A DNA stretch of 64,000 nt, taken from Allorhodopirellula heiligendammensis (GTDB lineage: Bacteria; Planctomycetota; Planctomycetia; Pirellulales; Pirellulaceae). Both the position numbers and the translations under genes were made by a program. Below, piece after piece: positions 1-33,051 of the stretch (position 1 is its first letter; each line of letters opens with the position of its first letter). The notes beneath the pieces were generated by a model. The model was given only the letters and a program-made list of their open reading frames with translations. It did no database searches and had not been told where the DNA came from. The DNA lies in assembly GCF_007860105.1 (NCBI RefSeq), contig NZ_SJPU01000002.1:1167739-1231738 (forward strand), given 5' to 3'.

Positions 1-196
1 TGCGGGTTTGCTTTTGATGGGCAGTGAGATCACGCTTTTCGGCTTGCGTGAGTTTCTCGCCATCGTGCAGACGCAGGGCGGCCGTTAACGCTCGGCGTGT
101 GCGATCGCGGCCGGTTGCCCGTGTAGTGGTGGCCTTCGCCTTGGTGGCTTTGACTGGCTTCGGCTTAGTCGCTGTCGCCGATTTTCGCTTCGCCAC
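1..196 (-). CDS. Lys/Arg-rich protein, N-terminal part only (runs off the left edge)
   Basis: This is an open frame of 65 codons from a GTG at 194-196 to the window edge with no stop. The start is supported by an AAGGGAG Shine-Dalgarno 8 nt upstream, one of the clearest in the window. The first 35 residues are a basic Lys/Thr/Ala-rich tail (MAKRKSATATKPKPVKATKA), followed by a more ordinary stretch (DGEKLTQAEKRDL) that looks helical. It overlaps the end of the preceding gene by 32 nt and continues the same minus-strand cluster. I do not recognise the family. A basic tail would suit nucleic-acid binding, but that is inference. Confidence 0.55.
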   Translation of the reverse strand, partial: MAKRKSATATKPKPVKATKAKATTTRATGRDRTRRALTAALRLHDGEKLTQAEKRDLTAHQKQTR

Positions 197-431
197 GGTT
201 CAATCTCCCTTGATGTCGCCACCATGGCACTGGGTCGGTGTTTTGGCCGGGTGGCCAGACGATGGGTTGAGGGGATTGGTTTTCGAGTCGCTCGATCCGT
301 TCGTCGAGCGATCGGCAATCAAACGATTGCCAGCTTGCAATCGCAATTGCGACGATCGCAATCACGGTACTGAGGGCGTTAGCACTGGCCTGCAGTGCAG
401 GCCAGGCGTGCGATCGAGCTTCACTACTCAT
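165..431 (-). CDS. small single-pass membrane protein (88 aa), unknown function
   Basis: The ATG at 429-431 overlaps the end of the upstream gene, whose stop is 424-426, so the pair is translationally coupled. Residues about 14-34 form one hydrophobic helix (STVIAIVAIAIASW). A short charged coiled-coil-like stretch (SLDERIERLENQ) and a Pro/Trp-rich tail follow. The longer in-frame extension to 590 has no membrane character and overlaps the whole upstream gene, so I rejected it. Size and position recall small accessory membrane proteins of phages and integrative elements, but no family is recognised. Confidence 0.5.
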   Translation of the reverse strand: MSSEARSHAWPALQASANALSTVIAIVAIAIASWQSFDCRSLDERIERLENQSPQPIVWPPGQNTDPVPWWRHQGRLNRGEAKIGDSD

Positions 432-654
432 CAGCGAGCAAACCGCGTAGATGATCGGTGGCCACGGCGACTTGCGTTTCCTCGTGCGAGTCGTTGAGAC
501 GCCGGCGGACGCGTTTCCAATCTTTGGCTTCCATGAATTGGATGCGGCCGGTGATAGCTTTGCGAGTGAAGTAGATGCCGATACACGCAAAGAACGCTGA
601 GAGAATCAAGCAGGCGATCACACAGAACGCTAACGCAGCAACGAAGATTATCAT
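424..654 (-). CDS. small membrane protein (76 aa), unknown function
   Basis: The ATG at 652-654 overlaps the stop of the upstream gene (ATGA, stop 651-653). The N-terminal 30 residues are one long hydrophobic segment (MIIFVAALAFCVIACLIL). A short basic amphipathic cytoplasmic tail follows (KDWKRVRRRL). The product has no signal-peptidase site that I can see. The position between a thioredoxin-like protein and another small membrane protein in an overlapping cluster argues that it is a real gene. Function is unknown. Confidence 0.55.
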   Translation of the reverse strand: MIIFVAALAFCVIACLILSAFFACIGIYFTRKAITGRIQFMEAKDWKRVRRRLNDSHEETQVAVATDHLRGLLADE

Positions 655-1316
655 GAGAAACTCTTGACGAGGATGGTGATGCCGACGCCGAGCCCAGCGA
701 TCGCAACCAACGCCATCCCGCCAATCAGGATGGTGCCGATCACGGCTGCTCCGAGATAGACAGACTGCGGGATTGCGACTTCGGTGTTGACGTTGACGGT
801 GTCGGGGATGAGGCTTGGCCGCTCGCCAGGTCGAAAGATCGGCGTGCGGGACGGCTGCGGCTGAGGTTGGTAGGGGCACGTCGGGCAGTCTGCCGTGGCG
901 TTGCGCCCGTCTGCCGGCCGGGGATTCTGGGCTCGGTCGGCTCTGGCGGCCGCCATCAGATCAGCCGCCAATTTATCCGGATCGTACGTGGCCGGGCCGC
1001 TGGCTTTGTAGAGCACGCCGCCATCGGATCGCACGAGAGCGACCTTGGGCAGGCTCGTGATGCCGAGAGCGGACGCGTATCGGGATTGATAGAGCGGGTC
1101 GTTCACTTTGAATAGGAAGGACTTGCAACGCGCACGGATCGCAGAGAGCTGCGGGTGAGTCTCCGTGTTGGCGACCAACGTTTCGTCAGCAGTCATCGGA
1201 AACTCGGATGTGACCACGATGAGGTGATACTTCCCGGAGTCATCTGGCAATTGCTGAGCCGATGCGATGGACACAGCGATCGCGAGGATCGCGAATGCTA
1301 GGATTGCTCGGATCAT
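651..1316 (-). CDS. exported thioredoxin-fold-like protein with C-terminal membrane anchor
   Basis: The product has 221 aa. The start ATG (1314-1316) overlaps the upstream stop by 4 nt. Residues 1-20 are a signal peptide ending ASAQQ. Residues about 28-125 resemble a thioredoxin fold: a beta strand (YHLIVVTS), helices, then SLPKVALV, which resembles the cis-Pro segment, and a Gly-rich turn. No CxxC sits at the usual active-site position, so a redox role is uncertain. A CPTCP motif followed by a Pro/Gln-rich linker occurs near residue 145, and the last 40 residues form a transmembrane helix. The adjacent lipoprotein carries the same CPTCP motif, which hints at a shared partner or metal. Confidence 0.6.
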   Translation of the reverse strand: MIRAILAFAILAIAVSIASAQQLPDDSGKYHLIVVTSEFPMTADETLVANTETHPQLSAIRARCKSFLFKVNDPLYQSRYASALGITSLPKVALVRSDGGVLYKASGPATYDPDKLAADLMAAARADRAQNPRPADGRNATADCPTCPYQPQPQPSRTPIFRPGERPSLIPDTVNVNTEVAIPQSVYLGAAVIGTILIGGMALVAIAGLGVGITILVKSFS

Positions 1317-1978
1317 TGGGCGCTCGCTTCGCGGATAACGGCTTGGACGGTGGCGGATCGCACGTTGATGCCCGCCTTCGATGCGTAGTTGCGGATGGTC
1401 GATTCGATCTGTTTCGGCGATGCGTTTCGCCAGCATTGTTCACACATGCACGTCAGCGAGATTCGATCATCCGTCCATAGTTCATGCCACTCCCGGCCGA
1501 CGGTTGCCCTCCCACACATCGAACAGCGAAAGATACCTTCCTTGACGTCGTCCGGCTCAAAAGGCTTCTGGATCGGCCGCTGCGGACAATTCCCGCTGGG
1601 GCACGGCGGCGTGGACGCAGTCGGCCGTGGCATTGTCGCCTGTGGCGTTGGTCGGCATTCCGACAACGGCTGCACCCACAACAGACTCTCCCCGGGATTC
1701 AGATTGAATCCTCCGGAGTACTGCGTGGACGCGTAGCTAGGCGTCGGCCGTGCCTGGGGACAGGTTGGGCAACCTCCGTTCTTGGTCTCATGCAGCGCGA
1801 CGAGATTGACGCTCGTATCATTTGCCTGAGTGGTGCTGTCGTTATGGGGCGACGAGTAGAACGTTTGACCGAGCGCGAACGGATCGCATGTAGGGCCGTC
1901 ACATTGAGGTTGCTTGCAGTCGCATCCCAAGGCTGCGACGAGCAACAGCGATGCGGTGAGTAACAGTTTCGGAATCAT
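1313..1978 (-). CDS. Cys-rich lipoprotein with a zinc-ribbon-like C-terminus
   Basis: The product has 221 aa. Residues 1-19 are a lipoprotein signal ending in the lipobox ALGC. The mature part is rich in paired cysteines: CDCKQPQC, CDGPTC, CPTCP, CPSGNC, then CSMCGR followed 27 residues later by CMCEQC. The last two pairs are spaced like a zinc ribbon or small treble clef. Pro-rich linkers separate the cysteine pairs. The start overlaps the upstream stop by 4 nt, as in the rest of the cluster. No family is recognised. Cell-surface metal or disulfide chemistry is a reasonable guess only. Confidence 0.6.
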   Translation of the reverse strand: MIPKLLLTASLLLVAALGCDCKQPQCDGPTCDPFALGQTFYSSPHNDSTTQANDTSVNLVALHETKNGGCPTCPQARPTPSYASTQYSGGFNLNPGESLLWVQPLSECRPTPQATMPRPTASTPPCPSGNCPQRPIQKPFEPDDVKEGIFRCSMCGRATVGREWHELWTDDRISLTCMCEQCWRNASPKQIESTIRNYASKAGINVRSATVQAVIREASAQ

Positions 1979-2667
1979 TTGGTGCTCCTAAGAGTTGCGT
2001 CGAAGAGTGGTGGGGGAACCGGCGGGGCTGCCAATGCCAATCCGAATCCGCCGTATCCATCCCAGTCCCTCGCGAACTTGTTACGCTCGACGGGGATGTA
2101 GTGAGTTGGGCGGTTGTTGTCACACAGCCAGGCGTATTCGGTCGGATCCGTTGGTCGATACGGATCGGTGCCGAACCCGACGAAGTTGACGCAGTGCCTT
2201 GGCCAATGCCAAATCAAGGCCGATCGCCGGGTAGCGGTGCACCAATCCAGAAAGCCCATGTCGGCTCGATTGGTTGAGTAGTAATCCAACCCGACCGCGT
2301 CCGTTTGGCGGCGGATGCTGGTGTCCGTCTCGCCGCCGGCGGTGTTGTCTCGCCACCATTGGGCGAGCTCTGGCATGCCAACCCACGTGAGGTTGTAGAC
2401 CTGACTCGCATTGACACAGCTCCCCGACCCGCCCGAGTCGGTCCAGTTGTACGGCCGCAGCTCGGTCGGCAGGTTCGCCACCGGCGATTCGGTGATCTCC
2501 AAAAGCGGCAGGTACTCCTGGATACTCTCCGAAGAATCGCAACCGCTCACCGCAACGCAAAAGCCGACGGCTAGCAAGCAAATCGCAACCGAACGCAGTC
2601 CAGTCAGCCTAGAATTCTGTTTTGTCACTTCGTGCACCCATCGAGAAACGCGGCGGTCACAGACCAA
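1975..2667 (-). CDS. lipoprotein with a papain/C39-like cysteine-peptidase pattern
   Basis: The product has 230 aa from TTG at 2667; a GTG at 2628 would give a cleaner lipoprotein signal. The lipobox is VAVSGC. The mature domain shows the order expected of papain-like peptidases: Cys in GSCVNASQ, at the start of a helix followed by a Trp-rich segment (ELAQWWRD), then His in PRHCVNFVGFG, then an acid/amide pair in WLCDNN. This is a motif-level assignment; I cannot align it. The gene heads a run of overlapping genes and lies just downstream of an HTH gene. A surface-anchored peptidase or peptidase-like protein on a mobile element is unusual. Confidence 0.55.
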   Translation of the reverse strand: MVCDRRVSRWVHEVTKQNSRLTGLRSVAICLLAVGFCVAVSGCDSSESIQEYLPLLEITESPVANLPTELRPYNWTDSGGSGSCVNASQVYNLTWVGMPELAQWWRDNTAGGETDTSIRRQTDAVGLDYYSTNRADMGFLDWCTATRRSALIWHWPRHCVNFVGFGTDPYRPTDPTEYAWLCDNNRPTHYIPVERNKFARDWDGYGGFGLALAAPPVPPPLFDATLRSTK

Positions 2668-2717
2668 TAGTTTCTAGATGGTGTAGCCCCATCCCGGCGT
2701 GTCCGGGTTGGTGATGA

Positions 2718-3101
2718 TCAGATCGGATCCGCCAGACAGGCCACGCATGGCCACAACCGCATGAGCCCATGCCGGGGGCATCGCTTGGGGGCCTTCAGCA
2801 ATTCGGGCCGAGCGACCGTGCCGCCCTGGTCCTGTACCTTCAAGAATTGTCGACGTGTGACATTGCCGACGGCGGATTTCGACTTGCCGATCCGAGTTGC
2901 GATTGTCCGAATCGGCAATCCTTCCAGCTCGCGGAGCCGCTTGATCTCCTTTTTCTCCTCGGGCGTCAGATGCTTGCCGTCATAGTTGAGGCCAGATTCC
3001 CGGGCAATCTTCCGCACGGCCCAATAAGAGACCGACAGTCGAGAAGCGATCTCGACCGGACGTTCGCCGTTCGCCAGCAAACGCAGAACCATTTCGCGCA
3101 T
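2718..3101 (-). CDS. small DNA-binding protein with two HTH motifs and a C-terminal Cys/His cluster
   Basis: The product has 127 aa. Residues about 1-35 form a helix-turn-helix (ERPVEIASRLSVSYWAVRKI). Residues about 45-80 form a second one resembling Hin/resolvase-type HTH (GLPIRTIATRIGKSKSAVGN). The C-terminus holds C-x2-H-x7-C-x2-C (CPRHGLMRLWPCVAC), which could bind zinc. It is the first gene of the minus-strand cluster, 50 nt ahead of the lipoprotein, so it may regulate the cluster or act in packaging or replication of the element. The family is unassigned. Confidence 0.65.
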   Translation of the reverse strand: MREMVLRLLANGERPVEIASRLSVSYWAVRKIARESGLNYDGKHLTPEEKKEIKRLRELEGLPIRTIATRIGKSKSAVGNVTRRQFLKVQDQGGTVARPELLKAPKRCPRHGLMRLWPCVACLADPI

Positions 3102-3617
3102 AAGTGTTTTGGCCGGACAAGCCGGCTAGTTCGGGGTGGTTACATCCGAACTCAAGCCTCACCCCGAGTCCACAAACAAACTTACTTACTCGGGATTTTA
3201 GCGGAGCGTGCGCAAAAAATCGACCCGATAGCCGGGCGAAGCCCCCCAGGGCACTCGGGCCGGGGGGCCCCGCTAGCCATCGGGCGGCCGGGCGGCGGTT
3301 GACGGGCCGTGTTCCGGTGCACTGTATGGTTCTATCGTGGGCGGCTGGCCTGGGACACGCCTCGGTTTCGAGGCCAGCCGCCCACCAAGAAAACAGGCGG
3401 AGCAGCGAGGAGTGCTAAGCCGGCTTTGGGGCTTAGCTCTCCTCACTGCGTAGACCCTCACCTGATTGGGGGTGTAGAATGCCCGAAGGATACGATTGAG
3501 CTGCGTTAGGCTCAGTACGAGAGCAAGGCTACTTCTCGCTGATAAACCTTGCAAAACACCTCAGAAACCTCAACACCTAAGCACGGCGGGAACTGGCATT
3601 CAAAGGAGAATTTGAAT
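3102..3617. other. structured non-coding stretch of about 515 bp before the Abi-alpha gene
   Basis: No credible coding frame exists here. From 3240 to 3300 the sequence is very G+C-rich. A perfect 15-bp inverted repeat (3337-3351 with 3371-3385, 19-nt loop) is followed by a second long hairpin (3407-3412 plus 3414-3421 pairing with 3430-3437 plus 3439-3444, one T:T mismatch). Smaller stems follow (GAGC/GCTC near 3500, CGAGA/TCTCG near 3520-3542). It lies between the divergently transcribed HTH gene and the Abi-alpha gene, so it must contain their promoters. The number of stems suggests a structured RNA or a palindromic repeat unit. Confidence 0.5.
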
Positions 3618-4421
3618 ATGGATCAAAGTGAACCCGACAAGGGGCCGTTGATTGGAGATCTGACGGGCGCAGGCAAGGTAATAAACTCGGAAGTCGCCAA
3701 ACGCATTTATGATGACGCATTATCGCCATCTATGCGTGAGTTAGGCAGTTTGTCGGAAGACTTCCTGAAGACGATTCATCTTATCGCAGCGCCGTTTCAA
3801 ATCGGAGCCGTACTTCAAGTTCGCTTAGTTTCATTCTGCGAGCGAATCAGCAACATGGTACCAAAGGAGCGGCAAAGGGATGCCCCCCCGGAAATCGCTA
3901 AACCAGTGATCGAGGCAATCGCATTCATAAGAGATGACAGTCCACTGATGACAATGTTCGAAGAATTGATGTCGCGTGCTATCGATGTCAACGAAGCTGA
4001 CGAGCTGAGCCCTGAATTCCCTGCTATTATCCAAAGTCTCAGTCCGCTTCAAGCAAAATTGATTACGTCGCTGGCAGCCGAAGACCACTTCACAGACATA
4101 ATTCAAGACAGGAACACTGGAATCGTTTATCGACAATTGGGTTCGAACTATCAACCTGAGGATTACCACGGATACCCGCACCACCTCACACTTGTGCAGA
4201 ACTTAGCAACGAAGAGCATTGTAACGATTCTTTTTCGAGACATCGCCGAAGAGTATCCAGACACCACGGTCCCAGAAGGCACGCACCTACGCCGCATGTC
4301 GGTTCGATTGTCTAGGTTTGGACTGTGGTTTGCCACATCGTGCACGGAGCGACAAGCACCGACCACCCAATCGCACGGTTTCGCGAGCGATGGAATTCCC
4401 CAGAGCGGCGAGTTCGGTTGA
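3618..4421 (+). CDS. Abi-alpha / DUF4393 family protein (abortive-infection-like)
   Basis: The product has 267 aa. The ATG at 3618 has an AAAGGAG ribosome site 8 nt upstream. The upstream in-frame extension is rejected. Residues about 15-150 match the Abi-alpha (DUF4393) pattern from memory: an N-terminal helix leading to LSPSMRELG, a hydrophobic helix (LIAAPFQIG), the Pro-rich spacer PPEIAKPVIEAI, then acidic SPLMTMFEELMSRAID and the conserved LSPLQAKLI. No catalytic residues are evident. The next gene encodes a DUF4062 protein 64 nt downstream in the same direction. G+C is visibly lower than in flanking chromosomal genes, in keeping with transfer. Family members are associated with phage exclusion, but the mechanism is not known to me. 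Confidence 0.75.
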   Translation: MDQSEPDKGPLIGDLTGAGKVINSEVAKRIYDDALSPSMRELGSLSEDFLKTIHLIAAPFQIGAVLQVRLVSFCERISNMVPKERQRDAPPEIAKPVIEAIAFIRDDSPLMTMFEELMSRAIDVNEADELSPEFPAIIQSLSPLQAKLITSLAAEDHFTDIIQDRNTGIVYRQLGSNYQPEDYHGYPHHLTLVQNLATKSIVTILFRDIAEEYPDTTVPEGTHLRRMSVRLSRFGLWFATSCTERQAPTTQSHGFASDGIPQSGEFG

Positions 4422-4485
4422 ATCCAATCAGAGGTCATTCGCACTCCCTGTTCGTTGTTTACTTTCCCAAACTAGTACACTTTGC

Positions 4486-5481
4486 ATGGCAAAGCCGAGA
4501 ATTTTTGTTAGCTCTACCTATTACGATCTCAAGCACATTCGTGCGAGCCTTGAAGCATTCATCCAGTCGATGGGATACGATTCGGTCTTGTTCGAAAGCG
4601 GAGATATTGCGTTTAATCCAATGCGACCATTGGACGAATCGTGCTACCAAGAAATCGGAACATGCCACATGCTTGTTCTGATTGTCGGCGGTCGATATGG
4701 TTCGGCAGCGACCGGCGAGGACGCAAACCAATCAACGGAATCGGAAGAGCACTACAAACGATTCATCTCAATCACTCGCAAGGAGTATGAAACCGCCTGT
4801 GGGAGAAACGTGCCTGTCTTCATTTTTGTCGACAAAAACGTCCTTGCCGAGTTCGAGACGTTCAAACGCAATCGGGAGAACACCGCAATAGCGTACGCAT
4901 ACGTGGATAGCATCAATGTGTTTCATCTGCTTGACAATCTTCACTCGCCGGGCCGCAACTATTTCATCCGTGGATTCGAAAATTTCGAGGACATCTCCAC
5001 ATGGCTTCGCGATCAGTGGGCAGGGCTGTTTGCAGAGCACCTAGCAAAGTCAAGCACTGACCAAGCTATTGAGGATTTGAGTGGACAAATTTCGGACCTA
5101 CGCAACGTCGTCTCAGTTCTTCGAAAGTACAGCGAGGCAATGATTAAAACGATCCAGCCGGAAACGTCTGATGCAATCATTTCTGAGCAACACGAGCGAC
5201 TTCGCAAATCGAGAATTCGAAATTTCTGGCAAGAGCACTTTATTCAGTTTCTTCTCCAGCTGAGCGAAATTTCTCTCCGCGAACACATCTTGCCCGAAGA
5301 GATGTTCCATAAATTTGAGATGTCAGTTTCGCTCGAATCATTCTTGGAAAAACTCGGTTTAGAACAAGCACTCGCGGATAGTTTGATGGATCCAAGTGCA
5401 ACTCGCGCGACGGAAGCTTTTTGGGAACTTCAGACTCGCTATTTACGCGATTACAACGATAGCGACGACGATACCGAGTAA
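4486..5481 (+). CDS. DUF4062 domain protein, putative effector/sensor partner of Abi-alpha
   Basis: The product has 331 aa. The ATG at 4486 is chosen because the DUF4062 domain begins there (AKPRIFVSSTYYDL); sequence further upstream is unrelated. Residues 1-90 carry the family hallmarks: VSSTYYDL, FESGDIAFNP, SCYQEI and VLIVGGRYGS. A helical domain (SITRKEYETAC...VPVFIFVD) follows, then a long helical/coiled-coil C-terminal half (about 185-331) ending in an acidic tail. DUF4062 resembles TIR/nucleoside-deoxyribosyltransferase folds and is often found N-terminal in defence and STAND-type proteins; here it is fused to no NTPase. Together with the preceding Abi-alpha gene it forms a plausible two-gene immunity module. 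Confidence 0.75.
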   Translation: MAKPRIFVSSTYYDLKHIRASLEAFIQSMGYDSVLFESGDIAFNPMRPLDESCYQEIGTCHMLVLIVGGRYGSAATGEDANQSTESEEHYKRFISITRKEYETACGRNVPVFIFVDKNVLAEFETFKRNRENTAIAYAYVDSINVFHLLDNLHSPGRNYFIRGFENFEDISTWLRDQWAGLFAEHLAKSSTDQAIEDLSGQISDLRNVVSVLRKYSEAMIKTIQPETSDAIISEQHERLRKSRIRNFWQEHFIQFLLQLSEISLREHILPEEMFHKFEMSVSLESFLEKLGLEQALADSLMDPSATRATEAFWELQTRYLRDYNDSDDDTE

Positions 5482-5563
5482 AGATAAAATGTAAACTTTC
5501 ACGATTCGAAGACCAATGCCGTTTCTCACGCCGAACGTTTTATGAGCAAACCAGCCTGTTCCA

Positions 5564-5731
5564 CTATCCCGACGTCAGCTCGTCTGTTGGAAGTTCATCG
5601 CCGAGGCGTGGCTTCGCAATCTCGTTGATAATGCGAGTAAGCACGGCTCGGACTGCTCTTTGCTCGTTGTCTTGGATTGCTTGGTTGACGATTTGCAAGC
5701 ATCGTTCACGCTCTCTTTGAACTTTGTCCAT
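5564..5731 (-). CDS. small helical protein (55 aa) overlapping the end of the integrase gene
   Basis: The frame begins at ATG 5729-5731 inside the 3' end of the integrase gene (overlap 26 nt) and encodes MDKVQRERERCLQIVNQAIQ followed by a second amphipathic helix and an acidic tail. Composition is that of a real small charged helical protein, and its coupling to the integrase suggests co-expression. It could be an excisionase-like or regulatory partner of the recombinase, but no HTH motif is visible, so this is speculation. Confidence 0.5.
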   Translation of the reverse strand: MDKVQRERERCLQIVNQAIQDNEQRAVRAVLTRIINEIAKPRLGDELPTDELTSG

Positions 5732-6596
5732 GGGTTCGCTGACGCTGTGGGGTGATGGGGGCAACAGCCTTGCGTTGGTCGACGTAGCTCTTGCGGTCCA
5801 ATCCTTGGCGTGAATGTCCAAGGAACCGCCATGCTAAGCCGCCCTCGCTCTCGACCTGAGTCGCGCCGGTTCTCCGGACGTGCTGCAGGGCACGGTTTCG
5901 CTTCTCGGGTTCCACGTCGGCTAATTCCCTGGCCCGCCTCATCCAGTAATAAAACGTGGTTTCGCTTTGCGGCCATCTTAGCGGAGTTTGGGCGTGTTTG
6001 TCGCCTGCACTTTGAAGCCTCGATGATAGACGCCTGAGATCCGTTTCCGTTTCGCTCGTGATTGTTACTACGTGAACACGTTTCGTTTTATGTTGCGTCA
6101 TGGCAGCCAGGCGATTGCCGTCGAACTCACTCAAGTTGAACCGCCACACGTCGCTTCGTCGGAGTCCGGTCTCATACGCGAACCAGAGGCACGTTGAAAA
6201 GTAGAGGCCGCGAGGTAAGCCGTTTGTGAGGTAGCCGTCAACCTTGCTCGCGGCCTCGGCTACACGCTCGAGTTCGTCGAACGCCCACGCTTCGGGATTC
6301 TTGGGAGTGACCGCAACCGATCTCACGTTCTCGCGATTCAAGCCTTGCCCGAACTTCTTCCAGAGCGTCAGCAGCGACGTTCGGACGTTGGCCCGACTGC
6401 GATCGCCGATTTCGCCAACGTCTCGTTCGTGCTTCAACCAACGGTTGACCGTACCTTCGGTGAGATCGGCCGTGGTCGCTGCCCGCCTCAGAAATCGCTC
6501 GAACCGCGTCAGGGCATAGCGGAGTTGATAGGCGTAAGAATTTGAGATCTCGGTTTGCAGTTCGTATCGCGAGACGACGTCCGCTAGCAGGTCCAA
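5706..6596 (-). CDS. tyrosine recombinase / phage-type integrase
   Basis: The product has 296 aa. The start is a TTG at 6594-6596 with GGAG 7 nt upstream; no ATG or GTG exists before the upstream in-frame stop. Residues 1-100 are a SAM-like core-binding domain. Residues about 105-280 are the catalytic domain with Arg in YETGLRRSDV (146/147), Lys near 170-172 (QHKTKR), His-x-x-Arg in LQHVRRTG (239 and 242), His in FLGHS (261) and the Tyr nucleophile in RKSYVD (271), so all catalytic positions are present. It lies next to a partial tRNA-Leu gene, the expected attachment site, and should integrate and excise the element to its left. Confidence 0.9.
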   Translation of the reverse strand: MDLLADVVSRYELQTEISNSYAYQLRYALTRFERFLRRAATTADLTEGTVNRWLKHERDVGEIGDRSRANVRTSLLTLWKKFGQGLNRENVRSVAVTPKNPEAWAFDELERVAEAASKVDGYLTNGLPRGLYFSTCLWFAYETGLRRSDVWRFNLSEFDGNRLAAMTQHKTKRVHVVTITSETETDLRRLSSRLQSAGDKHAQTPLRWPQSETTFYYWMRRARELADVEPEKRNRALQHVRRTGATQVESEGGLAWRFLGHSRQGLDRKSYVDQRKAVAPITPQRQRTHGQSSKRA

Positions 6597-6696
6597 TAGT
6601 TCGCTCCGGTTGAAACTGAAATCCTCCCTGCAGTACTGCGAAGTCCTGTTTCTGCCCCACTATTGTAATTGCCTGCATCGAGTTTGCTCGACGATC

Positions 6697-6758
6697 CGCG
6701 CTAGGTTGAGGGCCTAGTGGGAGTTAATCCCGTGGAGGTTCGAGTCCTCTCGGCCGCA
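6697..6758 (+). other. attachment-site half: displaced 3' fragment of a tRNA-Leu(GAG) gene
   Basis: The sequence contains an intact anticodon arm (CTAGG, loop TTGAGGG with anticodon GAG, CCTAG), a long variable region typical of Leu tRNAs, a T-arm (GGAGG-TTCGAGT-CCTCT) and the acceptor 3' strand CGGCCGC plus discriminator A, with no encoded CCA. No matching acceptor 5' strand or D-arm precedes it; the bases before about 6697 do not resemble a tRNA. This is the classic leftover of integration into a tRNA gene. The reconstituted complete tRNA should stand at the other end of the element, left of this window, in the same orientation. Confidence 0.85.
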
Positions 6759-6791
6759 TTTGAAAAAGACTGCAATTCATTGCCTTTTAAA

Positions 6792-6824
6792 GGGCTCACC
6801 GTCTATTTCGGTGAGCCCTTTTTT
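6792..6824 (+). terminator. Rho-independent terminator downstream of the tRNA fragment
   Basis: GGGCTCACC (6792-6800) pairs with GGTGAGCCC (6810-6818) across a short loop and is followed by six T residues. It probably once terminated the tRNA-Leu transcript. It also covers the last codons of the convergent membrane-protein gene. Confidence 0.85.
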
Positions 6825-7776
6825 CGTGGGCGAACCCAGTTGTTACCACGATCGCCAGCAATGGAGACATCTCACGGTCGAACTTTTGCTTTGCCGCGAT
6901 GAGTACGAACAGTAGCGGTATCGCGACCATCACCAATCGCAGGGATGCGACCAGCCACGGTTTTCGATTTCGCAGGAGGGGGAGCTCTGTTGTCCAGCAT
7001 AGTAATGGCGCGAGCAGCATCGTGATCGCTGGGCCGGTCGAAATCTCACCGAAGAAACGACCGATGAACAGCAGGCTGAACAAACTTACCACGCCGACTC
7101 CAACAATCCCCTCCGCGACGTGGTTATCTGCATGGTCAATCTTGACGCGATTGGGTGTGTATGTTGTGACCGCGCGCAGCGCGAGCGATGCACCCATTAG
7201 CGTCGCCACAAACGGAATCGCTGCGGCACCTCCTTTGATATAGCCGCCCAGCATGACCGCCACACCACTGCACTGAATGGCGAGGCAGAGTGCGAAAGCG
7301 ATGGACAGTCCGCCACTTCGCTTGGCCAGCCAGGACAGCAAGCCCCATACGAGGGTCAGCCCGAGGCCGCTGACTACCATTGTTATCCAAGCTCGGGAGG
7401 CTGTGTCATCCGCCGTAGTGCTCAAATAGACAGAACCGTGGAGCAGAATTCGCGGGGTCGCCAGCGATAGGCTGATTCGCAACAGCCAGGCGGCAACACG
7501 CGGGACGCGGCTGAATCCTGCCATGAATTCAATCCCGAGCACCGCAGGAATTACAATCATCAACAACCGATCGAGACCATTGCGAGGGGGCCACGACAGG
7601 TTGAGATCCAAAACGGCGTTTCCGATGGCGAGCCCGGATCCAATTCCAATTACGCACGCCGCGTTGCACCAGACTTCGCTCGCCGACCGTCTCAGCGACA
7701 ATATTGCCAGTACGACGACCGCGCTAGCGGCCGTCGCAATACCCATCGCTTTCCAATAGAGCAATGGATCGGGCAT
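6796..7776 (-). CDS. polytopic membrane protein, unknown family
   Basis: The product has 326 aa, about nine or ten hydrophobic helices, and a short basic C-terminus (HEKRAHRNRR). It starts 3 nt after the stop of the YceI-like gene, so the two are co-transcribed. No transporter or enzyme motif stands out, and charged residues are mostly in loops. The gene is chromosomal rather than part of the integrated element, since it lies beyond the attachment-site fragment. Its 3' end runs through the terminator hairpin, which may indicate that the stop codon lies at an old integration border. Function is unknown. Confidence 0.7.
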   Translation of the reverse strand: MPDPLLYWKAMGIATAASAVVVLAILSLRRSASEVWCNAACVIGIGSGLAIGNAVLDLNLSWPPRNGLDRLLMIVIPAVLGIEFMAGFSRVPRVAAWLLRISLSLATPRILLHGSVYLSTTADDTASRAWITMVVSGLGLTLVWGLLSWLAKRSGGLSIAFALCLAIQCSGVAVMLGGYIKGGAAAIPFVATLMGASLALRAVTTYTPNRVKIDHADNHVAEGIVGVGVVSLFSLLFIGRFFGEISTGPAITMLLAPLLCWTTELPLLRNRKPWLVASLRLVMVAIPLLFVLIAAKQKFDREMSPLLAIVVTTGFAHEKRAHRNRR

Positions 7777-7779
7777 CCG

Positions 7780-8364
7780 CTATTTCCGCACACCTTCACA
7801 GTCGATCATGATCAAGGCTTCGTCGCCGATCGGTCCGATCGCATTCTTGTCGAAGCCATAGTCGCTCCGCTTGAGTGCCAGTTCAGTCGAAAATGCGACG
7901 CGTTTGACATCTTTGAATGTATGCTCCTTGCCGCCCATCAGCACGATCGTGATGCTGTGCGTGGTGCCGTGCATCGTAAAGTCGCCGGTTACCTCGTATC
8001 CACCTTTGATCTTCTTCGTGCTCGTGCTTTTGAATTCGATCGTGGGATACTGTTTGGTATCGAAGTAATCGGGTTGTCGCAGGTGTTTGTCACGGGCTTC
8101 GTTGGCGGTGTCCACGCTGTCGGTTTTGATCGTCAGAGAGAACGTCGATTTGGAAGGATCCTCTCGGTCGATTGAGAATTTTCCAGCGACGTCGTTAAAC
8201 CGACCATGAATCCAGCTGATATCGAGATGTCGGGCTTTGAAACTGACCGACGAATGTACGAGGTCGTAGTCATACTCGTCTGCTGCGAAGGTGGGCGTGG
8301 CAAAGACGCATAGAGTGACGCCGCACACAAGCATTCGGGTCGAAGCGGAGAGAAATCGCATCAT
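7780..8364 (-). CDS. YceI-family periplasmic lipid-binding-like protein
   Basis: The product has 194 aa, the usual YceI length. Residues 1-27 are a signal peptide (ATPTFAADEY). The mature protein has the family pattern: YDYDLVHSSVSFKARHL at the start of the lipocalin-like barrel, VDTANEARDKHLRQPDYFD, YPTIEFKSTS, and GDFTMHGTTHSI in the middle. YceI proteins bind isoprenoid or fatty-acyl ligands in the periplasm, but the ligand here cannot be read from sequence. It is the first gene of a two-gene unit with the membrane protein downstream, which could be the partner in lipid handling. Confidence 0.9.
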   Translation of the reverse strand: MMRFLSASTRMLVCGVTLCVFATPTFAADEYDYDLVHSSVSFKARHLDISWIHGRFNDVAGKFSIDREDPSKSTFSLTIKTDSVDTANEARDKHLRQPDYFDTKQYPTIEFKSTSTKKIKGGYEVTGDFTMHGTTHSITIVLMGGKEHTFKDVKRVAFSTELALKRSDYGFDKNAIGPIGDEALIMIDCEGVRK

Positions 8365-8686: not shown

Positions 8687-11521
8687 TTAATTCGAAGATG
8701 CAGATGTGATCCGTAACTTCGCACGTAGGCCGTCGTCTTGAAACGACAGGCTTGTCTCGATCACGTCGTCCGGCTTGATGTTCAGCCCCAGGACGGGGCC
8801 AGCTTTCGGTTCGAGGTGATAGCCCTGCAGTGTCGAGACGTACGAACTGATCTCATCGTCCCACGCGTATTCGCCGCCGCCCGGTTCGACCAACGTTTGT
8901 CCAAAGAGTTGTCGATACACCGTTTTCGGATCGCGGTCAGGATAGCGATGACGTAGGTAGTTTAGTATTGGTAGATTGCCCCACGACAAACGGTGCATGC
9001 GGTTTAAGCCCGCCTGATACCCAAATGCATTGACCAGCTGTGCACCGACGCCCGTGATGCGAGTCTCGAGTTGCGCCCCCGACTCGGCCATTGCGTCTTC
9101 ATCAACGAGCTGCTTCAACTCAGCTGTATCTTCTTTCCGAGCAAGATGTCGATCAATTGCGCGGCGGATAACGCGTTCATTCAGGCTGATTGTCAATCCA
9201 TCGGGCAACGTCACGTAATAGAGTTGGGGCATGTCCTGGGGATCGCCGATGGGAGTCGACTGAGCAGCCGTCGCTTGGACAAACTCAATGTCCTTGTGCT
9301 TGATCGATTCCCAGCGTATGAGATTCGGAGCAGAACGCGAAAGAAACGTTCGAACAGCTCCCACAAACAGAGCTTGCTTGAGGCTGTCTTTCGATGGCAC
9401 AAACAGCCCGATGGGTAAATCCTTGAGAATTTTCTCGCTGCTTGATTCCCACACAGGCTGGGCTGCCAATTGCCGCATCCACGTTTCGTCACTGTCGAGA
9501 TAGAGATGAATTGAATCATCAATCCAGCTAATCATATTGATGTTCGCTTCTCCGTTGCCCAGGAACATCGATGCGAAGCGTAGCTGGGGCGAGTTGACAT
9601 CGAGTGCCATCAACCACGTCAGCAGTTCTTCATCGTGTCGATCGCCAGCATTGGATTTCAAAGTGACGTCGCCGATCAACGTCTGCCAGCTACGGTACTC
9701 CGTGCCCAGAATCAGGGGGATTACTGATAAATCGCCGGAGAATGAGTTCCCGTCGATCGAAAGCTGTAGTGCGATCGGATCGAACACGTTTCTCCATCGT
9801 CTTTGGTAACGATCGCGCCAACCCACGTACAATTCCACTTCGCCAGTGGTAGCCGTGGTCACATTTAATTCGGCGATCGGTGTTTGAAAATCGAGCGTTC
9901 CGTAGCGATCGGAGCGAACACCGCCCGAGGTCAGCATCAACGTTCCCGCGTCGGGTAGGTTGCTGGCGATCTGCAGCTGCGTTTCATCTTTGACATCGCC
10001 AGCAATCAACGCGTCCGCATGTTGCATGGTTAGTTCTGCGATCGAAGCGCGAGCTCGCGTGCGGCGTGCAGCACTGATCCGCCATTGCGGTCCACACCAT
10101 CGTCGAATTGCTGCATCGGTGATGACGATTAATGCGGACTCGTTGGTACCTTCTCGGCGATAACGCTCGCGAAAGAACCGGTATTCGTCTAGCTCTGCCA
10201 TCGATTGAGTTTGTGAATCGACAGTTCCAAGAATCGCTTTCATCTGAGCGATTGAATTGGAAACGACGACAGCATCATCGACGACGGTGACTAAGCTGCT
10301 GAAATCGCGACGAGGATTCGACCACTCAACAATCTTGTGGTCATTGAACTGGTGTTCGATTTGGGCGACGTGTTCATGCAGCGAGGAATGCCCTGAGATC
10401 TGTGCCAGAATCGCTTGGTACAATATCGTGGGCTGATTTGTCTGCATCAGAACCGCGATGTCTGTGCCGGTACGGAAGTATGGATCCGACCCAGTGATGG
10501 TGACTTCATCGACGAGCGTGCCACCGATCTGACGAGTGACAATGTCCAGCGACAGTCCAAGTTGCGATTGATAGAAACCAAGTACGTCGGTCGTTCGACT
10601 TTGGGGCTCGAACCACTGGGCGATCGGGCGCGTGAATTCGCGGCTACGGTCGACGATCTCAACCAGCTTCGCGAACGACGGAACAAACACCGCATATTGA
10701 TCGTGCGGCACCAAGCGAGCCAGTGGATCAAGTTGCGGGGGTTCCTTCGACAGTCGCCCCGTCCAATCAATTTCGCGAACACGGATGCCCTCCACGTCCG
10801 AGAGCTTTTTCAGTTCGTGGTCATCACCCTCCGTGATGGCGAGTTCGCGGTCGAACTGCAGATTCTCGCTGACTGCCCTGCCGCCGCTGACCAGTCGAAT
10901 CGTCTCGTCGACACCACCGCTGCGGCGCAGCGGCCAGCTGGGGCCGATCGGGCTGGCTGACTCGCCAACCTCCCGTAAAGACTCGATCGCAAGGTGGCGA
11001 AACATTGCCGAACCCGCGTAGTCCGGGGACCAGAGTAGTTGAAAGTAACGGCCTTTCGCACGATGAAAATCACTCGCTTCACACGTCGTCGCTGGAGTCT
11101 CATCGACATGGAAATCGAATTTTGCCAGCGTCGATTTTTGTGCTTGCTCTGGGTGTCGACGCAAAACGTAGAACTGTCCATCGACGGCAACGCCCGGCGG
11201 TTTGCGTCCAATAATTTGATACCCGGCATACTCATTATTGCGATCCTGTGGCTCCAAGAGATAGGCTTCCACTCCAGGCGGCACCACCACGCGGGGAGTC
11301 GTCTCCATTTGATGGAACGACGCCTCGAGCATTTTAGGGTCTGAAACGATGTGAGACTTGTCAAAATTCTCGATGAGATGTCCGACGTCGATTGAGAAGT
11401 AGACAGAATCGGCCGCCATGGGTTCAGTCTCGGCGCCCTCCAAGAATGGCAATGCAGGGATGCTGATGAGCAGAAAGCCGACAAATGTGATTAAGCGTGA
11501 CACAGGTACCCTCGTTTCCAT
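8687..11521 (-). CDS. large secreted protein, last gene of the DUF1800/DUF1501/ABC operon
   Basis: The product has 944 aa. Residues 1-30 are a signal peptide (LISIPALPFLEGAETE). The mature part is a soluble alpha/beta protein without membrane segments. Around residues 265-285, LVPHDQYAVFVPSFAKLVEIVD resembles the opening of DUF3352-type secreted proteins, and the recurring pattern of a strand, a helix, and TVVDDAVVVSNSIAQMKAIL also fits that group. The first operon gene looks similar, so the operon may begin and end with distant relatives. It starts 139 nt after the ABC permease. Function is unknown; the ABC genes suggest membrane-coupled export or envelope work. Confidence 0.65.
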   Translation of the reverse strand: METRVPVSRLITFVGFLLISIPALPFLEGAETEPMAADSVYFSIDVGHLIENFDKSHIVSDPKMLEASFHQMETTPRVVVPPGVEAYLLEPQDRNNEYAGYQIIGRKPPGVAVDGQFYVLRRHPEQAQKSTLAKFDFHVDETPATTCEASDFHRAKGRYFQLLWSPDYAGSAMFRHLAIESLREVGESASPIGPSWPLRRSGGVDETIRLVSGGRAVSENLQFDRELAITEGDDHELKKLSDVEGIRVREIDWTGRLSKEPPQLDPLARLVPHDQYAVFVPSFAKLVEIVDRSREFTRPIAQWFEPQSRTTDVLGFYQSQLGLSLDIVTRQIGGTLVDEVTITGSDPYFRTGTDIAVLMQTNQPTILYQAILAQISGHSSLHEHVAQIEHQFNDHKIVEWSNPRRDFSSLVTVVDDAVVVSNSIAQMKAILGTVDSQTQSMAELDEYRFFRERYRREGTNESALIVITDAAIRRWCGPQWRISAARRTRARASIAELTMQHADALIAGDVKDETQLQIASNLPDAGTLMLTSGGVRSDRYGTLDFQTPIAELNVTTATTGEVELYVGWRDRYQRRWRNVFDPIALQLSIDGNSFSGDLSVIPLILGTEYRSWQTLIGDVTLKSNAGDRHDEELLTWLMALDVNSPQLRFASMFLGNGEANINMISWIDDSIHLYLDSDETWMRQLAAQPVWESSSEKILKDLPIGLFVPSKDSLKQALFVGAVRTFLSRSAPNLIRWESIKHKDIEFVQATAAQSTPIGDPQDMPQLYYVTLPDGLTISLNERVIRRAIDRHLARKEDTAELKQLVDEDAMAESGAQLETRITGVGAQLVNAFGYQAGLNRMHRLSWGNLPILNYLRHRYPDRDPKTVYRQLFGQTLVEPGGGEYAWDDEISSYVSTLQGYHLEPKAGPVLGLNIKPDDVIETSLSFQDDGLRAKLRITSASSN

Positions 11522-11660
11522 TGAATGAGTTGAGCCGGCGAGTGACAGCCCTCATCGTCACCAGTGCCCGTGAGCAAGCACATGCTGCGCGGAATGTTCG
11601 CAGAATCTAGCTGAAGTTAGCCAACGATGACACGACGAACTGATTCTGAAGATCACGGAC

Positions 11661-12530
11661 CTATAGATCACGACGGTAAAACAGGATCGTGGTACAAGCA
11701 AGCGCGGTCAGAGTTGGGAGACCATATCCCATTATCACTCGCCCTAGCGAAAAATCCTTATAGTCGCCACGCTTGTAAAATGCTGGATCTCGCTTCGTCA
11801 CGGCAGGACGACTGCCGATCAATACACTCAAGAAATCCGCTGCGGCTTGCATGTCTTCTCCACCTGTCAGTTTCACCTCTGCGTTCGCGTCATGGTCATG
11901 CCAAGGTGTTCTCAGTAGTGTCGGTAGCGATTGGTTCAAGCTGATTGGGGAAAACTCTTCCAGAGAGAAGGTGTGCAAGATAAGATTTACCGGCATCCAA
12001 ATGAAAATGAGTGCAGCCGCAGCAAACATGGAACTGCGAAATGCGGTGCCAGCAAAGTAGCCAATGGATACCAAGAATGTGATGACCATCGCGACCACGG
12101 CGAGCGACGCAACGACGCCGTACGATGTCACAGGATCGTCAGTGGAGGCAGGACGATCGGCCAATGAAACAATTAAAATCGCTGGCACGATCCCTACGAA
12201 TAAAACGGCCAGAGCCGCCGTGACTCGTGCTGACCATGATGCCAGTAGGTACTCCAGTCTCGTAACCGGTCTGCTGAGGATACCGTCCGACAATGCTTCC
12301 AAACGAGATCCGGTGACCGGGTTGAGGCCCAGTAACAACGCAACCAAGAACCAGGGAAAAACTAGGTATGGGAACAAGAGCATTGCGATCATGGGTGCCG
12401 TTGGAGTCACAGCCCAGTTAGTCGTGACAATTAAAAATGTCACCAGTACCGTGGCAATCAACCACGAACGAATTAGCCAGCTCTTCCATAGACCTTGAAG
12501 TTTATACGTGAAGATCGCTCTTAGCGGCAT
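11661..12530 (-). CDS. ABC-2 type permease
   Basis: The product has 289 aa from ATG 12528-12530 (MPLRAIFTYKLQG); a start at 12572 inside the ATPase gene is possible. It shows six hydrophobic helices in the ABC-2 layout: the first after SWLIRSWLIA, a large exported loop before the last helix (about 190-255), and a final segment (LPTLTALACTTILFY). The conserved EALSDGILSRPVTR segment before helix 3 is the usual cytoplasmic coupling region. It overlaps the end of the ATPase gene and is its obvious partner. The substrate cannot be predicted; the flanking secreted proteins are candidates for cargo or modulators. Confidence 0.85.
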   Translation of the reverse strand: MPLRAIFTYKLQGLWKSWLIRSWLIATVLVTFLIVTTNWAVTPTAPMIAMLLFPYLVFPWFLVALLLGLNPVTGSRLEALSDGILSRPVTRLEYLLASWSARVTAALAVLFVGIVPAILIVSLADRPASTDDPVTSYGVVASLAVVAMVITFLVSIGYFAGTAFRSSMFAAAALIFIWMPVNLILHTFSLEEFSPISLNQSLPTLLRTPWHDHDANAEVKLTGGEDMQAAADFLSVLIGSRPAVTKRDPAFYKRGDYKDFSLGRVIMGYGLPTLTALACTTILFYRRDL

Positions 12531-32946: not shown

Positions 32947-33051
32947 GCGGATTACTTGGAGCGATTAACTGGACGGCCCAGCAAGCCGTCGCTGGCATGG
33001 CTCGCACTGCTGCGAGTGTGCAACTCATTGTGATCCAGCTTGGCCTTCGAC
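32947..33051 (+). pseudogene. C-terminal fragment of a TnpA_REP-like transposase gene
   Basis: Over about 105 bp the DNA is clearly similar to 39296-39400 inside the intact transposase gene of this window (shared blocks gcggattacttggagc, ctggacggc, ctggcat/ctggtaa, gcttggcct). Reading-frame shifts have destroyed it. Only this C-terminal piece remains, without the HUH or Tyr motif. Confidence 0.7.

Follow-up and report, generated by a model that had tools for sequence, protein, structure and literature searches.

In the 64,000-nucleotide stretch of the Allorhodopirellula heiligendammensis genome analyzed here (the window), a gene for an Abi-alpha (DUF4393) protein, P0001, stands directly before a gene for a stand-alone DUF4062 protein, P0002. 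We consider it likely that the two are independent pieces of prophage cargo that share a slot on the integrase side of the element, each by itself an anti-phage gene of a type already described. This reading follows from the failure of the pair to recur in the other genomes sampled, from a near-chance co-occurrence of the two families, and from their separate use of the integrase-side slot. The pair probably does not form a new two-part system. That both genes come from defence families, as an earlier note on this DNA held, is supported; both families already have published defence roles, and most likely nothing in the pair goes beyond the known kinds of prophage-borne anti-phage genes.

The ORF coordinates and Pfam assignments agree with the arrangement previously described. 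P0001 (267 aa) is encoded at 3618..4421 and P0002 (331 aa) at 4486..5481, both on the plus strand and separated by a gap of 64 nt (4422..4485, same strand). An AGGAG lies upstream of P0001 at 3604-3608; the gap holds no obvious ribosome-binding site ahead of P0002, and a promoter and terminator scan gave matches at the level of shuffled sequence, none of them within the 64 nt. The low G+C ascribed to the pair is real, at 48.7% for 3618-5481 vs 56.1% for the window, and a value as low or lower is seen in 0.6% of the window's 1.8 kb slices (step 100, with pair-overlapping slices counted in). A distance of 224 nt separates P0002 from the tyrosine integrase of the prophage (5706..6596, minus strand; phrog_1, E 1.7e-10), which scores 23.6 bits (E 5e-5) against PF00589, below the cut-off of 27.1. 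The description of the pair as mobile cargo adjoining an integrase holds.

The surrounding element is a prophage, a better name for it than island, because PHROG matches reveal terminase, portal, head-protease and capsid genes in the 20 kb adjoining the window on its left. These include a terminase gene (phrog_15, E 6.4e-25), a portal gene (phrog_21, E 1.8e-44) and a major head/protease gene (phrog_4523, E 3.7e-60), all immediately outside the window. The right end of the prophage is probably marked by an att site at 6697..6758 (plus strand), an exact copy of the 3’ end (the final 62 nt) of an intact tRNA-Leu(GAG) located elsewhere in the genome. Of the proposed integration into a tRNA-Leu gene, one part stands, as the tRNA-Leu trace at the integrase end is real, and the other end was not found: a search for a second att copy through 100 kb leftward returned just chance words of 11 and 12 nt. 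The intact tRNA-Leu(GAG) lies on the same contig and the other strand, 1.16 Mb distant (G000:C2:14593-14677, L197), beside another integrase and phage replication genes. The prophage looks split, by rearrangement or through an effect of the assembly, and either would explain both the distant tRNA-Leu and the missing second att copy. An Rfam scan of window positions 1-8000 gave no match. At 32949-33037 of the window ARAGORN calls a tRNA-Ala with anticodon AGC (89 nt), which is unusual for a bacterium and possibly a false call.

P0001 passes the gathering score of Pfam PF14337 Abi_alpha (E 4.9e-18, 66.3 bits, cut-off 29), and it also matches phrog_2232 (E 2.6e-12) and three PADLOC models of PDC-S47 (E 1.3e-18), which is a candidate family only. 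We take the letter S in that name to denote a single-gene system. Hydrophobicity peaks from residue 55, with a mean of 1.56 over 19 residues that is at or below the usual level of a membrane helix, and the C-terminal half of the protein is divergent. The AlphaFold2 model, built from 11 sequences, is mediocre (pLDDT 67.3), being better over residues 62-246 and unreliable at residues 1-61 and 247-267. Its best PDB fold match is 3h35 (E 0.02), and because the Abi-alpha paper names the same entry as an Abi-alpha-like structure (PMC6356687), the match of the predicted model supports the family assignment, not any mechanism. No known nucleotide-binding fold appears among the structure matches of this weak model, and a sequence search of the PDB gave four weak matches, to armadillo-repeat proteins and YaxB. 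No match to P0001 was found among phage records. A lone match of 15 residues in viral contigs (L069) was taken for chance because its frame opposes a large terminase-like ORF.

The closest known counterpart of P0001 is EF2833 from prophage 6 of Enterococcus faecalis V583, likewise a prophage-borne DUF4393 protein, of 272 aa against the 267 aa of P0001; Abi-alpha is described there as a one-gene abortive-infection protein that causes premature lysis (PMC6356687). EF2833 works alone in a Gram-positive host, whereas P0001 has a DUF4062 neighbour, a planctomycete host and a putative function. The prophage location typical of Abi-alpha is found at the window too, with its terminase, portal and head genes, integrase and att site.

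P0002 matches PF13271 DUF4062 (E 6.9e-19, 68.3 bits, cut-off 24.7) and nothing in PADLOC, and Pfam finds no NTPase in it, in agreement with the earlier description. The AlphaFold2 model (51 sequences, mean pLDDT 84.9, pTM 0.59) predicts three parts, all encoded on the plus strand. Residues 1-178 (4486..5019) form an alternating beta-alpha domain, the TIR-like (DUF4062) domain, which lies in the N-terminal half of the protein that is conserved in 93 aligned sequences; residues 182-223 (5029..5154) form a long stalk helix, with pLDDT of 68-80 in its first part; and residues 228-320 (5167..5445) form a C-terminal helical domain that is a putative sensor. Foldseek places TIR-STING at the top (E 8.5e-4), with SARM1 and plant TIR domains, N-glycosidases and deoxyribosyltransferases at lower ranks, and aligns a CMP N-glycosidase with a TM-score of 0.71 on the target. 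Every E-value but the top one exceeds 0.001, and proteins with unrelated alpha/beta folds (NagZ-type hexosaminidase, caspases) are interspersed among the matches, so the assignment of the predicted TIR-like fold rests on the family of the matches together with Pfam and a preprint of May 2026 in which DUF4062 is a TIR-like NADase in Swarozyc (PMC13174449). The TIR-like or deoxyribosyltransferase-like fold suggested before for this protein is upheld as a predicted fold. By sequence, P0002 had no match in the PDB at E values up to 1.

The putative catalytic residue of P0002, Glu100 (codon at 4783..4785, plus strand; motif SITRKEYE), sits in the model on a helix at residues 96-106, after the third strand. 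It is Glu in 92 of 93 aligned sequences, as counted after three duplicates and six remote sequences were dropped from a set of 102 that included P0002. The predicted structure and this near-invariant glutamate fit the role of a TIR-like NADase. The sole exception, a DUF4062 relative in a genome of the same class (L090:4204-5184), is without the conserved Glu and may be inactive. The Klebsiella pneumoniae DUF4062 protein KpSwz, a Swarozyc protein, is described as a portal-activated abortive-infection system made of a single protein (PMC13174449), and it resembles P0002, as modelled here, in being a stand-alone DUF4062 protein with a TIR-like domain, a helical stalk and a C-terminal domain, and perhaps also in its conserved Glu. 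The catalytic Glu is E97 in KpSwz and may correspond to Glu100 in P0002, a comparison made from the published description. The two differ in that the C-terminal domain of P0002 is predicted to be all helical, whereas the AUX part of KpSwz has been reported as HTH/winged and carrying a hairpin anchor.

Relatives of P0002 were collected with a profile made from three of them, which led to 73 genome loci and 17 viral loci; single-sequence searches of viral and genome contigs with P0002 gave nothing useful, the A4 search of viral contigs gave no match, and A1 offered no sufficiently conserved stretch. Judged by their record titles, the relatives span Pseudomonadota, Bacteroidota, Planctomycetota, Bacillota, archaea and others, and when their tails were clustered, 57 of 89 grouped with P0002 and 23 made up a second type. 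These data outline a broad group of stand-alone DUF4062 proteins in bacteria, archaea and viral contigs, with a near-invariant Glu and at least two tail types. The closest relative, from a Methylovulum assembly, has 67% identity over residues 1-250, a match that points to horizontal transfer. One genome of the same phylum as the window (G107) has 11 DUF4062 matches, which are probably large multidomain proteins since every one falls in an open frame longer than 1000 aa.

The proposal that the two genes make up one defence system is not borne out by their neighbourhoods. An Abi-alpha ORF was found in the fetched flanks of none of the 90 loci with DUF4062 relatives (L176 and L177, which have no detected DUF4062 ORF, included), as searched locally with a home-made HMM that refound 45 of our 51 Abi-alpha loci, 13 seeds among them, and missed 6. 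From the other side, an adjacent DUF4062 gene was found at one of those 51 loci, which is the window's own. The 51 comprise 18 from the phylum (window included), 18 that three additional genome searches gave, 12 viral and 3 plasmid loci, and five of them score below the Pfam cut-off (L016, L204, L212, L213, L217); the DUF4062 HMM recovered 29 of 30 Pfam-positive loci, with two of these loci also part of its training set. With none of the 50 other loci positive, the rule of three makes a true rate of adjacency beyond about 6% unlikely, a ceiling that is generous, as some loci are related or cut short. At L065 (G108) DUF4393 and DUF4062 are 11.4 kb apart. The earlier note had named a lack of such neighbours elsewhere as one ground for refuting its proposal, and their absence from the other loci sampled speaks against the pair; we therefore reject a conserved two-gene DUF4393-DUF4062 system.

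Co-occurrence at the genome level agrees. Among 392 genomes of the phylum, DUF4393 is present in 16 (at 18 places) and DUF4062 in 69, and both are present in 5 vs 2.8 expected (P = 0.13), which is near chance; the window's genome is the only one in which they stand side by side. DUF4393 was found in 9 of 349 genomes in the phylum of a Pseudomonas (G651) and in 2 of 348 in that of a Paenibacillus (G691), with no DUF4062 near it in fetched flanks of about 1.5 kb. PF14337 occurs anywhere in only 3 of 50 genomes holding a DUF4062 relative (50 genome loci searched, from 72 listed), and the PF14337 places have no DNA in common with the DUF4062 loci. No sequence cluster of more than three members emerged among the genes up to two positions from DUF4062 (85 of 86 loci examined). 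Contig ends cut many flanks, with at least 1.2 kb on both sides in 65 of the 88 relatives that have a detected DUF4062 ORF, and neighbour counts are rough and probably low because the crude gene caller (longest ORFs) picks wrong-strand ORFs in GC-rich loci. The 87 near neighbours matched 153 PADLOC families and the 61 far ones matched 9, these being counts of families, not of proteins, inflated by redundant models. A literature search, run mostly without subscription papers and supplements, found no paper on the DUF4393-DUF4062 pair, and DUF4393 is absent from the main text of PMC13174449.

Each family is also found next to integrases on its own. In seven loci Abi-alpha has a Pfam-confirmed integrase no more than two genes away (L061, L221, L222, L223, L224, L225 and L228; the Abi-alpha proteins of L224 and L225 are near-copies that differ at 4 residues, and the L222 protein closely resembles both), and in three loci a DUF4062 relative has one immediately upstream (L161, L180 and L188). 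Since each family uses the integrase-side slot without the other, sharing of that slot accounts for the neighbourhood, and no joint function need be assumed. More generally, adjacency that does not recur is weak evidence for a defence system of several genes.

The reading of the pair as one system is modelled on Thoeris, where ThsA works with ThsB: the DUF4062 enzyme would make an NAD+-derived signal or deplete NAD+, and Abi-alpha would be the effector, sensor or regulator. Like Thoeris, P0002 would be a TIR-superfamily NAD+ enzyme, and in at least 3 of the 90 loci (L126, L157 and L183) relatives of it lie within Thoeris-type clusters that carry ThsA_Macro, which favours joint action, as do the tight spacing and common direction of the two genes (a single transcript is possible) and a TIR gene paired with Abi-alpha in L052. 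Unlike Thoeris, the window locus has neither ThsA nor ThsB among the seven genes scanned around it (Abi-alpha, DUF4062, integrase, HTH and genes of no known family). As the pair does not recur, as its families do not co-occur above chance, as published members of both act as single genes (PMC6356687; PMC13174449), and as P0001 shows no known nucleotide-binding fold, though in a weak model, we judge one system to be quite improbable. In L052 (G020, same phylum; 9818-11663) a TIR-TM-like gene, which matches PADLOC TIR-TM at E 2.4e-26 and is not called by Pfam at E 0.001, lies 94 nt upstream of Abi-alpha and runs in the same direction. Some affinity is hinted at by the two TIR-superfamily neighbours seen among 51 Abi-alpha loci. 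The chance is slimmer still that Abi-alpha can couple, as partner or effector, to more than one NAD+-cleaving TIR-superfamily enzyme (the DUF4062 protein of the window, the TIR-TM-like protein of L052), and that the window holds a rare two-gene system of recent assembly, with Abi-alpha either receiving a signal from the DUF4062 enzyme or exerting control over it. We keep such coupling in view because of the L052 pair and the DUF4062 genes in Thoeris-type clusters; if it were true, the trigger and action of Abi-alpha would become testable.

Two further explanations concern the prophage itself. Only one gene may be active today, the other being a decaying passenger, as the rearranged look of the prophage, with no left att and a distant tRNA-Leu on the other strand, and the divergent C-terminal half of P0001 might suggest; both reading frames are full length, however, and P0002 keeps its key residues, and we hold this to be unlikely. 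It is least probable of all that Abi-alpha, DUF4062 or both serve the prophage (lysis timing, lysogeny regulation) instead of excluding other phages. Their integrase-side position and the altered lysis timing reported for Abi-alpha in Enterococcus (PMC6356687) would suit such a role, but both families are found on plasmids too, and DUF4062 relatives are found among defence genes.

If the two genes are independent cargo, relatives suggest how each might act. The TIR-like domain of P0002 would be an NADase kept inactive in a stalk-held oligomer, and the C-terminal helical domain would sense a component of the incoming phage, which the KpSwz analogy suggests could be the portal or some other structural protein. 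The TIR-like domain would then split NAD+ through Glu100, so that the infected cell dies or stalls ahead of phage release. P0001 may act late and bring about too-early lysis of the infected cell, as reported for the Enterococcus protein. Lysogen and resident prophage would both benefit from the exclusion of rival phages.

Our analysis locates members of two single-gene abortive-infection families within a planctomycete prophage; it also turned up relatives in other settings. Window-type DUF4062 genes lie within Thoeris-like clusters at L183:5962-11943, L126:6139-8934 and L157:5526-7978; ThsA_Macro is present in all three, ThsB_TIR in L183 and L157, and TIR-TM in L126 and L183. The gene order in L126 is TIR-TM, DUF4062, ThsA-macro, and for that reason its DUF4062 might feed the Thoeris effector. 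On a Caballeronia plasmid (L101:6013-9073), Abi-alpha is located two genes upstream of the gene for a GajB-like helicase (PADLOC, E 1.3e-167), a Gabija component.
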